Assembly (NCBI GenBank): GCA_005889495.1
Contig: VBHA01000067.1
Location: 1 to 37,953, forward strand
Direction: 5' to 3'
Length of the DNA stretch: 37,953 nt
From: Chloroflexota bacterium
GTDB lineage: Bacteria; Chloroflexota; Dormibacteria; Dormibacterales; Dormibacteraceae
The position numbers and the translations under genes were made by a program. Shown piece after piece: positions 4,642 through 30,613 of this stretch. The first letter of the stretch is position 1, and every line of letters starts with the position of its first letter. The notes under the pieces were generated by a model. The model was not told the origin of the DNA. It did no database searches and saw nothing but the letters and a program-made list of their open reading frames with translations.

Positions 4642-5294
4642 GCCTGGAGATCGTCCGCCTCCACCTGGCGGATCTCGACAGCTTCAACAACATCCCCGTG
4701 CACGGCTTCGTCATCAAGCACCCACGTGCCGGCGCGATCCTCGTCGACACCGGCGTGGGGTGGGGCAACGAGCAGCTGATCCAGGAATGGAAGGTCGTGA
4801 ATCGCCACGCCGCGGATGCGCTCGCTGAGCACGACCTCAGCCCGGCCGACGTGAAGATCGTGATCAACAGCCACCTGCACTTCGACCACTGCGGCCAGAA
4901 CGCCGTGTTCAGGCACGCGCCCTTCTACCTGCAGAGGACGGAGCTGGCACGGGCGCGGAAGTCTGGCGAGGCGATCGAGTGGTTCGACTTCACGGGTGCG
5001 CGCTTCGAGCTGCTCGACGGAGATGTCGAGATCGCCGAGGGCGTGCGCGTGGTCGCGACTCCCGGTCACACCTCCGGCCACCAGAGCGTCCTCGTCGATA
5101 CCTCGGCGGGAGCCTCGGTGATGATCGGCGACGCCGCCTACACCGCGGACATCTACGCCGAGCCGGACACGGCCGACCTTGCCAAGTGGCCGGGCCAGCA
5201 CTCGAATCGGCGCGAGTGGACCAGGTCGCTGAAGAAGCTCCACGGGATCCATCCACACGCGGTCCACTTCTGCCACGACACACGCGTCGTTTAG
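4638..5294 (+). CDS. MBL-fold metallo-hydrolase (lactonase-like)
   Basis: A 218-residue metallo-beta-lactamase-fold protein. The metal-binding motif HLHFDHCG is intact, and further ligands lie in PGHTSGH and the Asp of IGDAAY. Overall spacing resembles the N-acyl-homoserine-lactonase-like/quorum-quenching branch (AttM/AiiA type), but that branch includes many hydrolases of unknown substrate, so lactonase activity is only a guess. No signal peptide is seen. TTG 4638 overlaps the ctaB stop (TTGA) and gives a protein beginning MSLEIVRLHLADLDS, which fits the family N-terminus. The stop TAG abuts the next gene directly. Confidence 0.82.
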   Translation: MSLEIVRLHLADLDSFNNIPVHGFVIKHPRAGAILVDTGVGWGNEQLIQEWKVVNRHAADALAEHDLSPADVKIVINSHLHFDHCGQNAVFRHAPFYLQRTELARARKSGEAIEWFDFTGARFELLDGDVEIAEGVRVVATPGHTSGHQSVLVDTSAGASVMIGDAAYTADIYAEPDTADLAKWPGQHSNRREWTRSLKKLHGIHPHAVHFCHDTRVV

Positions 5295-6110
5295 GTGGGA
5301 TTCGGTCCGCTCGTCGACACCGATTGGCTCCGCGAGCACCTCGCCGACCCGGACCTACGGGTGGTCGACTTCCGCTGGTATCTCGCCGGGCGCGACGGTC
5401 GGGAGGAATATCTGCGCGGGCACATTCCCGGCGCGGTGTTCGCCGACCTCGATTCGGTCACCGGCGCCGAGGGCGGAGGTAGGCACCCCCTCCCGAGCGC
5501 TGGGCAGTTCGAGGCCGCGATGCGCAGGGCCGGTGTCGGCGCCTCGACGAAGGTGGTCGCGTATGACGATGCCGGAGGCTCTGTCGCGGCCAGGCTCTGG
5601 TTTCTGCTCGGCTACTTCGGACATCGCGCGCAGGCGGTCCTCGATGGGGGACTCCAGGCCTGGGGAGGTCCGCTCGAGACCGAGATCCACGAAGTCGAGG
5701 CAGGTGATTTCCGTGCCGCGCCACCGGACACGAGGCGGGTGCTCGACTTCAAGGCCGTGCGCGAGCTTCGCGGCGTGCCGTTGATCGACGCGCGGGCCCC
5801 GGCGCGCTATCGGGGTGAGAGCGAACCCATCGACCCGAAGGCCGGGCACATCCCCGGCGCGCTGAGCGCGCCCTTCACCGAGAACGTGGAGGCCGACGGC
5901 CGGTTCAAATCGCGGGCGGAGCTGCGCCGCCGCTACGAGGAGCTTGGCGCCCGGGACGGAGCGGTGTTCTACTGCGGGTCGGGTGTCAACGCGACCCATC
6001 ACGTGCTCGCGATGGAGGTTGCGGGCCTGACCAATGCACGCCTTTACGCGGGCTCGTGGAGTGACTGGTCGCGCCGGGACCTGCCGGTCGCCACAGGCCG
6101 AGAACCTTAA
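5295..6110 (+). CDS. Thiosulfate/3-mercaptopyruvate sulfurtransferase (two rhodanese domains)
   Basis: Two tandem rhodanese domains (about residues 5-130 and 150-265) fill the 271 residues, the usual size for SseA/rhodanese sulfurtransferases. The N-terminal domain is the inactive type. The C-terminal domain has the active-site loop CGSGVNA, whose Cys carries the persulfide. GHIPGA occurs in both domains, as is normal. It moves sulfane sulfur from thiosulfate or 3-mercaptopyruvate to a thiophilic acceptor; the loop sequence does not settle which donor is used. GTG 5295 starts immediately after the stop of the MBL gene, so the two are probably co-translated. Confidence 0.9.
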   Translation: MGFGPLVDTDWLREHLADPDLRVVDFRWYLAGRDGREEYLRGHIPGAVFADLDSVTGAEGGGRHPLPSAGQFEAAMRRAGVGASTKVVAYDDAGGSVAARLWFLLGYFGHRAQAVLDGGLQAWGGPLETEIHEVEAGDFRAAPPDTRRVLDFKAVRELRGVPLIDARAPARYRGESEPIDPKAGHIPGALSAPFTENVEADGRFKSRAELRRRYEELGARDGAVFYCGSGVNATHHVLAMEVAGLTNARLYAGSWSDWSRRDLPVATGREP

Positions 6111-24986: not shown

Positions 24987-27342
<2,356 letters not shown>

Positions 27343-27347
27343 AGCCG

Positions 27348-28367
27348 ATGGAACAGCAGAGGAGCGGGATACCTTCCTTCGGCCCGTCCGGGCCGGCGCC
27401 TCCTCCCCATGAATGGGGAGGACAAGCCCAGGTGCGGGGAGATTGGGAGGGGCGCGAGCTTGCGCTCGACCTCGTGCACATCACCGAGAGCGCGGCGCTG
27501 GCGAGCGCGGGCTTCCTCGGCAAAGGTGACGCCGACGCGGTCAGCGAGGCGGCGGGGGAGGCGATGCGCCACGCACTCGAGCGCTCGTCAGTCTCGGGCA
27601 AGGTCGTGTTGAGCCCGCGCCAGCAAGCGCATCTTCCGCTCGGGACGGTCATCCCCGGCGGCGAGCGCGTGGTCGACCTGGGGGTCTACCCCGTGGAGGG
27701 CGCCAGCCAGGTCGCGCGCGGCCACATCAACACCGTGTCCCTGCTGGCCGCGGTCCAGCCGGGAGGTTTCGCCACGCTCCCGGCCGTGGCCCAGATGGAG
27801 AAGTTCGTCGCCGGTCCCCGAGCCCGCGGCGCCATCGACCTCGACGACCCGGTGGCGGACAACCTGCGCCGCATCGCTTTCGCCCACGATGTCAGGGTCC
27901 AGGACCTGACGGTGGCGATCCTCGAGCGGCCCCGTCACCAGGAGCTCATCGCCGACGTGGCCGCCGCAGGCGCCCGGATCCGGACGCTCGAGGAAGGCGA
28001 CTTCGCGAGCGCGGTCATGGCCGCCATGTCGGGCACCGGCATCGACGCGGCGATCGGGATCGGCGACCTCCACGCGACCCTTCTCGCCGCTTGCGCCGTC
28101 CGCTGCCTGGGCGGTGAGTTCGTCGCCCGGCTCATGCCGCGGAACGACGACGAGCGCAGGCTCATAGGCGAGCAGGCTTCCCATGTCTATGGGCTCGCCG
28201 AGCTGGCTCCGGCGGCCGACATCTCGGTGGCCATCACCGGGGTGACCGGCGGTCCCCTGCTCCCAGGCGTGAGCCATGGGAGCGGCTACGCCGAGACCTG
28301 GTCGCTGGTCATGTCGACGCGCCAGGCGACGATCCGCCGCCTGACCACGCGCCACCACCTCGTCTAG
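27348..28367 (+). CDS. Degenerate GlpX-like (class II fructose-1,6-bisphosphatase fold) protein
   Basis: A 339-residue protein aligning along its length with GlpX: ALDLVHITESAALASAGFLGKGD, MEKFVAGPRARGAIDLDDPVADNLRRIA, VAILERPRHQELIADV and TRQATIRRLTTRHHL. GlpX needs Mg2+/Mn2+ to dephosphorylate fructose-1,6-bisphosphate. Here D61 (the GKGD Asp) and E117 (PVEG) remain, but the GEGExDEAPM loop has become LSPRQQAHLPL, the Asp of DPIEG is Y114, and the Glu of the GGAPEG loop is absent (IGDLHAT). Catalysis is therefore doubtful, and a regulatory or altered role is likely. About 30 extra N-terminal residues (FGPSGPAPPPHEWGG region) derive from palindromic repeats, so the real start could be internal, though no obvious one exists. 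Confidence 0.8.
   Translation: MEQQRSGIPSFGPSGPAPPPHEWGGQAQVRGDWEGRELALDLVHITESAALASAGFLGKGDADAVSEAAGEAMRHALERSSVSGKVVLSPRQQAHLPLGTVIPGGERVVDLGVYPVEGASQVARGHINTVSLLAAVQPGGFATLPAVAQMEKFVAGPRARGAIDLDDPVADNLRRIAFAHDVRVQDLTVAILERPRHQELIADVAAAGARIRTLEEGDFASAVMAAMSGTGIDAAIGIGDLHATLLAACAVRCLGGEFVARLMPRNDDERRLIGEQASHVYGLAELAPAADISVAITGVTGGPLLPGVSHGSGYAETWSLVMSTRQATIRRLTTRHHLV
27379..27422. repeat. Composite palindromic repeat, copy 1, inside the GlpX-like gene
   Basis: Two adjacent inverted repeats: a seven-base-arm CGGCCCG/CGGGCCG stem and a perfect nine-base-arm CCTCCCCAT/ATGGGGAGG stem (27402-27410 and 27413-27421). The unit is translated in the extra N-terminal segment of the GlpX-like protein. 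A related unit lies just after that gene. Confidence 0.7.
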
Positions 28368-28382: not shown

Positions 28383-28440
28383 CCGGCCCTTCAGGGCACC
28401 TCCCATAAATGGGGAGGACGGGGAGGATGGGGAGGACGGG
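28383..28440. repeat. Composite palindromic repeat, copy 2, with GGGGAGGAY tandem repeat
   Basis: CCGGCCCTTCAGGG then CCTCCCAT/ATGGGGAGG (28399-28406 and 28409-28417) parallels copy 1. The right arm runs into three tandem copies of the nonamer GGGGAGGAY (28411-28437). It sits in the gap between the GlpX-like and M50 genes. Confidence 0.7.
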
Positions 28441-28489
28441 CGGCCGGATTAGTGGTATCCCTGTACGGGTATCAATAGAGAGGTACCCC

Positions 28490-29383
28490 TTGAGTCAGAA
28501 CGATCCCTATCAGCCCCCGTACAGCGGCCAGTACATCCCACCGCCGCCTCCGCCCGGACATCAGGGCGGCTCGGACATCCCGCCCGACTCCCCCTACCAC
28601 CGCTCTTCATCCCCCCCGGGATCGGGCGGGAGCACGCTCGGCTGGCTGGGCTCGGCGGCGTTGGCTGCCTGGGCGGTGGTCAAGTACGGCCTGGTGTTCC
28701 TGTTCAAGATCCCGGCCTTCGCGACGCTTTTCTCGGCCGTGATCAGCGTGGCCGTTTACGCGCAGGTCCTTGGCGGAGCATGGGCGGCCGTTGCCCTGGT
28801 GGTGATGATCTTCATCCACGAGATGGGCCACGTCGTCGAGATTCGCCGTCAGGGCATGTCGGCCACGGCTCCGATCTTCATCCCGCTTCTCGGCGCCGCG
28901 ATCTTCCAGCGTGAGCACGCGACCAGCGCGGTGAGGCAGGCTCAGATCGGGATCGCCGGCCCGATCGCCGGCACGATCGGAGCCACCGCCGCATTCCTCT
29001 TCTACACCACCACCCAGAACCCCATCTTCCTGTTTGCCGCCCTGATCGGATTCGCGCTCAACCTGCTGAACATGCTGCCGGTCTGGCAGCTCGACGGCGC
29101 CTGGGTCCTGGCGCCGGTATCGCCCTGGTTCCAGGTCTTCGGCCTGGTGGCGATCGCGGTCCTGGTGCTGTTCTTCCACTTCGTGAGCGTGCTGCTGATC
29201 ATCGTCGCGCTGCTCGGAATCGGGAGCGCGCGGGCGGCGTTCCGCAACGCCAAGAACCCCTACTACACCTCCGTCCCGGGAAGCGCGCGCCTGGCGCTGG
29301 GCGCGGCCTGGCTCGGCCTTGTCCTGTACCTCGGCGTGATGACCCTCCAGGCGGAGAGTTTGTTCGTCGCCCTGGCTCGGTAA
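28490..29383 (+). CDS. M50-family (site-2 protease-like) membrane metalloprotease
   Basis: A 297-residue polytopic protein. A Pro/Tyr/Gly-rich cytoplasmic N-terminus (about 60 residues, with IPPPPPPGHQ) precedes about six helices. The zinc motif HEMGH (H110, E111, H114) lies in a helix and the second metal-ligand motif NLLNMLPVWQLDGAWVL (D202) lies in a later helix, matching M50/S2P intramembrane proteases. Substrates may be membrane anti-sigma factors or signal-peptide remnants; none is indicated here. TTG 28490 is chosen because GAGAGG lies a few bases upstream and it gives MSQNDPYQPPY; longer starts would translate the repeat. Confidence 0.83.
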   Translation: MSQNDPYQPPYSGQYIPPPPPPGHQGGSDIPPDSPYHRSSSPPGSGGSTLGWLGSAALAAWAVVKYGLVFLFKIPAFATLFSAVISVAVYAQVLGGAWAAVALVVMIFIHEMGHVVEIRRQGMSATAPIFIPLLGAAIFQREHATSAVRQAQIGIAGPIAGTIGATAAFLFYTTTQNPIFLFAALIGFALNLLNMLPVWQLDGAWVLAPVSPWFQVFGLVAIAVLVLFFHFVSVLLIIVALLGIGSARAAFRNAKNPYYTSVPGSARLALGAAWLGLVLYLGVMTLQAESLFVALAR

Positions 29384-29614: not shown

Positions 29615-30613
29615 ATGGCGGTCCCGGAACCGACCGGGGCGGATAGCCTGACCGAGAGCCCCCACCCGGCGGCTGTCGCCGTCGAGCTCCCCACAGGTGG
29701 GGAGGCAAAACCGAAGGCCAAAGAGCAGTTCTTCTACGGCGGTCAGGCCGTGATCGAGGGCGTGATGATGCGCGGCAAGCGGCACTACGCCGTCGCGATC
29801 CGCCTGCCGACCACCAAAGAGATCGTGATCGACCGGGGTGAGTTGAAAGCCCCGATCTACACGAACCCGGTGTGGAAGCTGCCGTTCATCCGCGGCCTCG
29901 CCCTGATCGGCGAGCAGCTGCACCTCGGCATGAAGTCGCTCATCTGGTCAGCCAACATGAACGCGGGCGCGCACGACGTGCAGATCGGCAAGCGCGAGAT
30001 CACCGGCTCGGTCGCGGTTGCCGGCGTGTTCGCGCTTGCGCTGTTCATCGGCCTTCCACTCCTGCTCGCAAGTGTCGCCATCCACCGCAGCGGGAGCTTC
30101 GCCTTCGTGCTGGTGGAGGGCGTGATCCGGGTCGCCCTGGTCCTGGGGTACCTGGCCGCGATCTCTCTCCTGCCCGACGTGCGACGCGTCTTCATGTACC
30201 ACGGGGCGGAGCACAAGACGATCAATGCCTTCGAGTCCGGGTGGACCCTGGACGTCCCATCGGTGCGCCGGGCGAGCACGCTGCATCCCCGGTGCGGCAC
30301 CGGCTTCCTCCTCGTCGTGCTGGTGGTGAGCGTGGTCGTGTTCAGCGTCGTGGCGCTGTTCCACCCCAACCTCTTCTGGCTCGTCGCCAGCCGGGTGCTT
30401 GCGATCCCGCTGATCGCCGGCGCCGGCTTCGAGCTGATCCGCTTCATGGCGAGGCACCGCTACAACCCGGTCGTGAAGATCGCCCTTCTGCCCGTCCTCG
30501 GGACCCAGAAGTTCACCACGCGCCAGCCGTCTGACGACATGCTCGAGGTCGCGATCTGCGCCTTCAACAGCGCCCGCCAGGGTGAAGAGGAGACGGCCGG
30601 AGCCGCCGCATGA
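29615..30613 (+). CDS. DUF1385 membrane protein
   Basis: A 332-residue DUF1385 protein. Diagnostic segments are YGGQAVIEGVMMRGKRHYAVAIR near residue 40, IRGLALIGEQLHLGMKSLIWSAN, and MYHGAEHKTINAFESGWTLDVPSVRR followed by STLHPRCGTGFLL. About five membrane helices surround them. The family is found next to prfA in Firmicutes and Chloroflexota; its role is unknown. The N-terminus contains a translated copy of the dispersed palindrome (at ELPTGGEA). The ATG follows the rpmE stop directly and its own stop overlaps the prfA start. Confidence 0.87.
   Translation: MAVPEPTGADSLTESPHPAAVAVELPTGGEAKPKAKEQFFYGGQAVIEGVMMRGKRHYAVAIRLPTTKEIVIDRGELKAPIYTNPVWKLPFIRGLALIGEQLHLGMKSLIWSANMNAGAHDVQIGKREITGSVAVAGVFALALFIGLPLLLASVAIHRSGSFAFVLVEGVIRVALVLGYLAAISLLPDVRRVFMYHGAEHKTINAFESGWTLDVPSVRRASTLHPRCGTGFLLVVLVVSVVVFSVVALFHPNLFWLVASRVLAIPLIAGAGFELIRFMARHRYNPVVKIALLPVLGTQKFTTRQPSDDMLEVAICAFNSARQGEEETAGAAA
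29687..29704. repeat. Palindromic repeat, copy 3, inside the DUF1385 gene
   Basis: Perfect eight-base arms CTCCCCAC/GTGGGGAG around AG, followed by GAGGC. Its core resembles the CTCCCCAT/ATGGGGAG stems 2.3 and 1.3 kb upstream. It encodes residues in the non-conserved N-terminus. Confidence 0.6.

Follow-up and report, generated by a model that had tools for sequence, protein, structure and literature searches.

The closest described relatives of the protein analyzed here are the class II fructose-1,6-bisphosphatases (FBPases) of the GlpX type. The residues D33, E57, D85, E88, T90, Y119, K164, R166, D188 and E213 form their active site (PMC5892879), and the nucleophile and the ligands of both metals come from the set D33, E57, E59, D61, D85, T90 and E213 (PMC5892879; PMC10289334). 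In active class II enzymes the metals are held by the DPxE and GEGE loops and a threonine is the proposed nucleophile, while an Arg-Pro-Arg motif binds the 6-phosphate and IxDGD binds the furanose hydroxyls of the substrate (PMC10289334; PMC5892879).

The window, i.e., the whole stretch of 37,953 nucleotides that was analyzed, belongs to a Chloroflexota genome of 2.7 Mb in 201 contigs, which is 87% complete and comes from a soil bacterium. One of its open reading frames, here called pseudo-glpX (Table 1), matched the Pfam family PF03320 (FBPase_glpX) with an E-value of 3e-81 and 273 bits (cut-off 27) over the complete profile (1-307 of 307), and it did not reach the cut-off of TIGR00330, the NCBIfam equivalog of active GlpX (211.3 versus 259.3 bits). 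An open frame at 26673-28367, which extends upstream of the start at 27348, was rejected as read-through within pyrG; the conserved start MEQQRSGIPSF backs 27348. An AlphaFold2 model based on a 41-row alignment had a pLDDT of 90.5 and a pTM of 0.86, and values below 50 were confined to residues 1-8 and 19-26. Comparison of the model with M. tuberculosis GlpX (6ayu_B) yielded a Z-score of 44.2 and an rmsd of 1.4 Å over 300 residues (Foldseek E-value 4e-35). The nearest solved structures were the GlpX-type enzymes of M. tuberculosis, Francisella, E. coli and cyanobacterial origin (Z 36.7-44.2), followed by SuhB and inositol monophosphatases (Z about 12.5). By homology and fold the window protein is a member of PF03320, and it lacks what was tested for as required in an active class II FBPase.

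Table 1. Features of the pseudo-glpX locus (window coordinates; residue exchanges in E. coli GlpX numbering, followed by the residue of the window protein).
Feature	Position	Strand	Evidence and remarks
pyrG, CTP synthase	25690..27342	+	PF06418, PF00117; stop 5 nt before pseudo-glpX start
pseudo-glpX, degenerate class II FBPase (GlpX) paralogue, 339 aa	27348..28367	+	PF03320 full length, AF2 model, structure comparison
Palindromic repeat CTCCCCAT-GA-ATGGGGAG	27403..27420	+	within N-terminal coding region of pseudo-glpX
LSPRQQAHLPL loop, residues 88-98, in place of GEGExDEAPM	27609..27641	+	E57→P90, G58→R91, E59→Q92, D61/E62 deleted
YPVEGA, residues 114-119	27687..27704	+	D85→Y114, E88 kept as E117, T90→A119
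RPRH, residues 194-197, substrate 6-phosphate anchor, kept	27927..27938	+	R194, R196 in 43/43 pseudo copies; motif role PMC10289334
EEGD, residues 215-218, IxDGD equivalent	27990..28001	+	D218 kept, D186→E216; IxDGD binds furanose hydroxyls
GDLHAT, residues 239-244, in place of GGAPEG	28062..28079	+	metal ligand E213→A243
M50-type membrane protease homologue, next gene in conserved cluster	28409..29383	+	PF02163, synteny

Residue numbers refer to E. coli GlpX, to which the window protein was aligned. The ruler was a sequence that we take to be that of the E. coli enzyme. Its positions agree with the residue numbers used in PMC5892879 and PMC10289334. In the window protein the metal ligands D33, E57, D85 and E213 are S66, P90, Y114 and A243, and the threonine nucleophile T90 is A119. 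In addition, K29 is replaced by A62, E59 by Q92 and Y119 by Q149, and the pair D61/E62 is deleted. Kept from the list in PMC5892879 are E88 (E117), K164 as an arginine (R194), R166 (R196) and D188 (D218), so that the 6-phosphate anchor R/K-P-R (R194, P195, R196) and the furanose-binding aspartate (D218) are present. A sequence-only reading of the window had noted the replacement of the GEGExDEAPM loop by LSPRQQAHLPL, the Tyr (Y114) in place of the Asp of DPIEG and the missing Glu of the GGAPEG loop. The alignment agreed in all three cases, with the loop at residues 88-98, D85 aligned to Y114 and A243 within GIGDLHAT. The same reading had held that D61 and E117 of the window protein remain. E117 is indeed the kept E88; residue 61, however, corresponds to E. 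coli D28, which is no metal ligand and is D, N, Q or L in canonical GlpX. Because the real ligand D33 is S66, the metal site is emptier than had been assumed. A frameshift or a local sequencing error was ruled out as the cause of the losses, and chance likewise, since the losses are common to all orthologues examined.

The N-terminal coding region contains a palindromic repeat (CTCCCCAT-NN-ATGGGGAG) that occurs 79 times in the genome with at most one mismatch, compared with 0 matches of the reversed control; the window has copies at 27403-27420, 28399-28416 and 29687-29704. The copy in pseudo-glpX adds a proline-rich stretch, and the stretch around the repeat is missing from most relatives. 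Another copy overlaps the annotated start codon of the M50 gene. Because this ATG lies in a repeat, the true start of the M50 gene may be further downstream.

Within the family, orthologues of the window gene shared 53-86% identity. The sequence-only reading had suggested an alignment to look for a clade with the same losses, and such a clade was found: all pseudo copies lay on one side of a single branch with an SH-aLRT support of 99. Pseudo copies that are complete or nearly so occur in at least 76 of 110 genomes in the class, counted by hand as matches of at least 405 bits (top canonical match 382). The presence of the clade elsewhere in the phylum was also considered and rejected, as matches outside the class among 251 sampled genomes reached at most 385 bits, versus at least 405 for full-length pseudo copies. 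The five best of these loci were inspected and had canonical metal-site and nucleophile motifs. A contig search with one protein retrieved six relatives, four of which were pseudo copies from Chloroflexi/Dormibacterota assemblies.

Within the clade, which comprises proteins of the window's family (f1) and of the sister families f2 and f3, D33 and D61 were lost from 43 of 43 pseudo copies and from none of 33 canonical proteins, one of which has E at position 33. R164 and R166 were kept in all 43 pseudo copies, D188 in 40 of them. Retention was analyzed for 105 columns that are nearly invariant in canonical proteins, 93 of them serving as background. The window's family retained 61 of the 93 background columns, and background retention was 63-71% in the window's and the sister families. 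In f1 the substrate-binding columns were all retained (Y119 in exactly half of the proteins), and none of the catalytic columns was. The difference between the two classes had a Fisher P of 0.0013 in the window's family (about 0.001 for each contrast) and of 0.015 in the sister families, values that are descriptive, because the contrast was picked post hoc and orthologues do not count as independent samples. About half of the f1 proteins have Q or H in place of Y119, which completes the 6-phosphate triad as its third residue. Because substrate-binding columns were retained and catalytic columns were not, the divide appears to run through the active site itself: the fructose-6-phosphate half stays, and the metal/1-phosphate half goes.

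Two arginines are new. R91 (E. coli G58) was present in 22 of 22 f1 proteins and an arginine at position 33 in 19 of 21 f2/f3 proteins, and both were absent from all canonical proteins; three f3 proteins have a lysine at position 85. Newly fixed acids elsewhere, E215 throughout f1 and D240 in the genus and near relatives, do not rebuild a metal site. The new arginines, which lie in or beside the emptied metal site, could bind a second phosphate in place of the metal. Parsimony on the tree explained the losses of D33 and of D61 by a single basal change each in the clade. D85 is still present in seven f2 proteins, which belong to genera g169 and g173, and a few f3 proteins still have E57; all f2/f3 proteins and part of f1 retain E213 and Y119. 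Judged from this distribution, D33 and D61 would have been lost first (all 43 proteins) and E213 and Y119 last (only in f1).

A genome search for an additional canonical glpX or fbp, which the sequence-only reading had proposed, revealed a second GlpX (L002) at another locus, 39% identical to the window protein. L002 retains D33, E57, E59, D61, D85, T90, Y119, D188 and E213 and passes the TIGR00330 cut-off with 342.4 bits. A class I FBPase (PF00316) was absent from the matches over cut-off in this genome. Because an intact second GlpX is present, the FBPase function seems to be covered elsewhere in the genome. Replacement by a class I or a PF01950 FBPase was rejected, as none was found over cut-off; so was a link to the Calvin cycle, since RuBisCO was found in only 7 of 61 relatives and did not track the paralogue. 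One "canonical" GlpX of f2 (L076 in G059, about 4950-5927) has the exchanges G89→S, T90→A, K29→L and D33→E; judged by these residues, it may be decaying as well.

In genus g169 of f2, six genomes (G288-G293, loci L145-L150; 67-89% complete) had the pseudo copy only; a search with a canonical query found no canonical GlpX in them, and class I and PF01950 enzymes were likewise not found. From the product of the incompleteness values, a canonical GlpX would have been missed in all six by chance about once in 10,000 cases, if contigs are missing at random. The g169 copies keep D85, D88 and E213, have T90→V, D33→R and E57→A, and lack D61, and FBPase activity of these copies is unlikely. Because only the degenerate copy was found in these genomes, the role of pseudo-GlpX need not depend on an active GlpX, and a purely GlpX-dependent role is less likely.

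The selection pressure on both genes was determined in one set of 17 genomes from the genus. The pseudo copy had a median dN/dS (Nei-Gojobori) of 0.142 and canonical GlpX one of 0.061, ratios that are approximate because synonymous distances are large (medians of 0.87 and 0.79, respectively). Pseudo-GlpX is under purifying selection and is less tightly constrained than the enzyme. The paralogue is missing in three genomes of the genera g3 and g9; since the gene has been lost from these two genera of the family, it is dispensable there. Where relatives have pseudo-glpX, between pyrG and the M50 gene, g3/g9 have an unrelated gene of about 340 codons (L112, 348-1370 on the minus strand; L113, about 1740-2843 on the plus strand). 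Its product is secreted or lipoprotein-like, and the L112 copy had no Pfam match.

The sequence-only reading had also regarded a position right after pyrG as an unusual context for glpX. It is unusual for canonical glpX, but it is the conserved position of the pseudo-GlpX paralogue: the gene order argS-MBL-pyrG-pseudoGlpX-M50-DUF1385-prfA-prmC was found, with some local rearrangement, in f1, f2 and f3. In the window the stop of pyrG is at 27342 and the ATG of pseudo-glpX at 27348, and in nearly all close relatives pseudo-glpX starts 4-16 nt past the pyrG stop. In five cases from f1, f2 and f3 (L027, L048, L049, L052, L054) the two genes overlap by 4 nt (NTGA). The two genes are about 1.4 kb apart in some f2 genomes, and in one genome they are on opposite strands. 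Pseudo-glpX thus appears to be usually placed for translational coupling to pyrG, and co-translation would be common, not universal. The coupling may be mere co-expression, because the cluster is a run of housekeeping genes.

The explanation that we prefer on balance is that the window protein is a paralogue of class II FBPase that became a pseudoenzyme long ago and would serve as a sensor or regulator by binding a sugar phosphate. It would have kept the GlpX fold and the fructose-6-phosphate half of the active site and dismantled the other half, with the metal sites, the threonine nucleophile and the place of the cleavable 1-phosphate. A sugar (bis)phosphate would be captured by the RPR/GD pocket without hydrolysis, and the bound state would be passed on via contact with a partner, possible candidates being PyrG or, where one exists, canonical GlpX. 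Pseudo-GlpX would be made together with CTP synthase, as translation of the two genes would normally be coupled. The pseudoenzyme character, already suspected by the sequence-only reading, is supported by the canonical GlpX in the genome, by the clade with the same losses and by purifying selection, and the window protein very probably lacks FBPase activity. Binding of a sugar phosphate is rather likely, and its support is indirect, because it comes from the kept 6-phosphate/furanose subsite and the lost 1-phosphate/metal subsite; from the proposal of a regulatory or ligand-binding role, the binding part has thereby gained ground, and a regulatory role is what we infer. A more specific version, which we regard as rather unlikely, is a "metal-to-arginine swap": fixed arginines (R33 in f2/f3, R91 in f1) would stand in for the two catalytic cations, and the bisphosphate would be held and not cleaved. 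The protein would then be a class-wide FBP/F6P sensor, co-translated with CTP synthase, that couples the supply of pyrimidine nucleotides to the level of sugar phosphates and, in one genus, outlives the active enzyme.

Several other explanations were weighed. The window protein might be an inactive regulatory subunit of canonical GlpX that forms a mixed 222 tetramer and tunes gluconeogenesis. The common fold and whole-length homology, the tetrameric state of class II FBPase (PMC5892879) and the presence of both copies in nearly every f1, f2 and f3 genome of good completeness speak for such a subunit. It is nevertheless unlikely, as the six g169 genomes have the degenerate copy and no canonical GlpX was found in them, canonical GlpX occurs without the paralogue in family f4 (pseudo copy in 0 of 18 genomes) and in g3/g9, and the window protein shares just 39% identity with the canonical GlpX of its genome. 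An enzyme whose chemistry has changed, catalyzing another sugar-phosphate reaction that is possibly metal-independent, would be compatible with purifying selection, with new residues that are strictly conserved in f1 (R91, E215, S323), and with D240, which lies three positions from the lost E213 and is present in 10 of 21 f1 proteins. However, the residues of the emptied site vary between families (R33, K85, Y/F114, and V, I or A at position 90), which is unlike one conserved new catalytic center. At the emptied site of f1, R91 is the sole polar residue that is both new and invariant, and the f1 conservation comparison showed no new invariant acid/base pair or set at the lost positions, so that the new chemistry considered by the sequence-only reading has little support and is decidedly improbable.

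That the protein still works as an FBPase, other residues having taken over as ligands, is very improbable. E88 and the substrate pocket are kept, and because D85 and E213 remain in g169/g173, a one-metal site could persist there. The window copy, in contrast, is devoid of D33, E57, D61, D85 and E213 and has an alanine instead of T90, and the corresponding T89A and T84A variants of the active Francisella and M. tuberculosis enzymes were fully inactive (PMC10289334). Furthermore, a two-residue deletion removes D61/E62, and substitute acids are not conserved at the site, contrary to what a shift of the ligands would predict. That the gene is decaying and has no function is hardly credible. Its non-synonymous evolution is about 2.5-fold faster than that of the canonical copy, and it was lost in two genera; however, dN/dS remains 0.14, the frame is open and full-length in nearly all genomes of the three families f1, f2 and f3, and the model is confident (pLDDT 90.5).

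In the literature searched, which covered few subscription papers, no description of a GlpX or fructose bisphosphatase pseudoenzyme was found. What appears to be new here is a pseudoenzyme clade within the known family PF03320. Annotation pipelines would label the window gene a fructose-bisphosphatase; most of a bacterial class appears to keep a dead FBPase copy beside an essential nucleotide gene. The intermediates record the order of catalytic-residue loss and thus offer a natural series from a metal-dependent phosphatase to a binding protein; CTP synthesis may also be linked to the level of sugar phosphates.

Among the known systems, the SuhB/inositol-monophosphatase superfamily has a distantly related fold (Z about 12.5) and is much less similar to the window protein (about 13% identity). 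SuhB retains its metal ligands. It illustrates that a phosphatase fold can take on a second role, in this case in rRNA antitermination complexes (6tqn); for the window protein no evidence of Nus-factor binding was obtained. L002 belongs to the same family as the window protein, but differs from it in its kept ligands, its TIGR00330 score, its slower evolution and its locus. With the GlpX enzymes of E. coli (3d1r), M. tuberculosis (6ayu) and Francisella (7txa) the window protein shares homology over the whole length and the fold (Z 42-44), the 6-phosphate RPR anchor, the GD of the furanose motif and E88; unlike them, it has neither of the two metal sites nor the Thr nucleophile, scores below the TIGR00330 cut-off, and is encoded beside pyrG.
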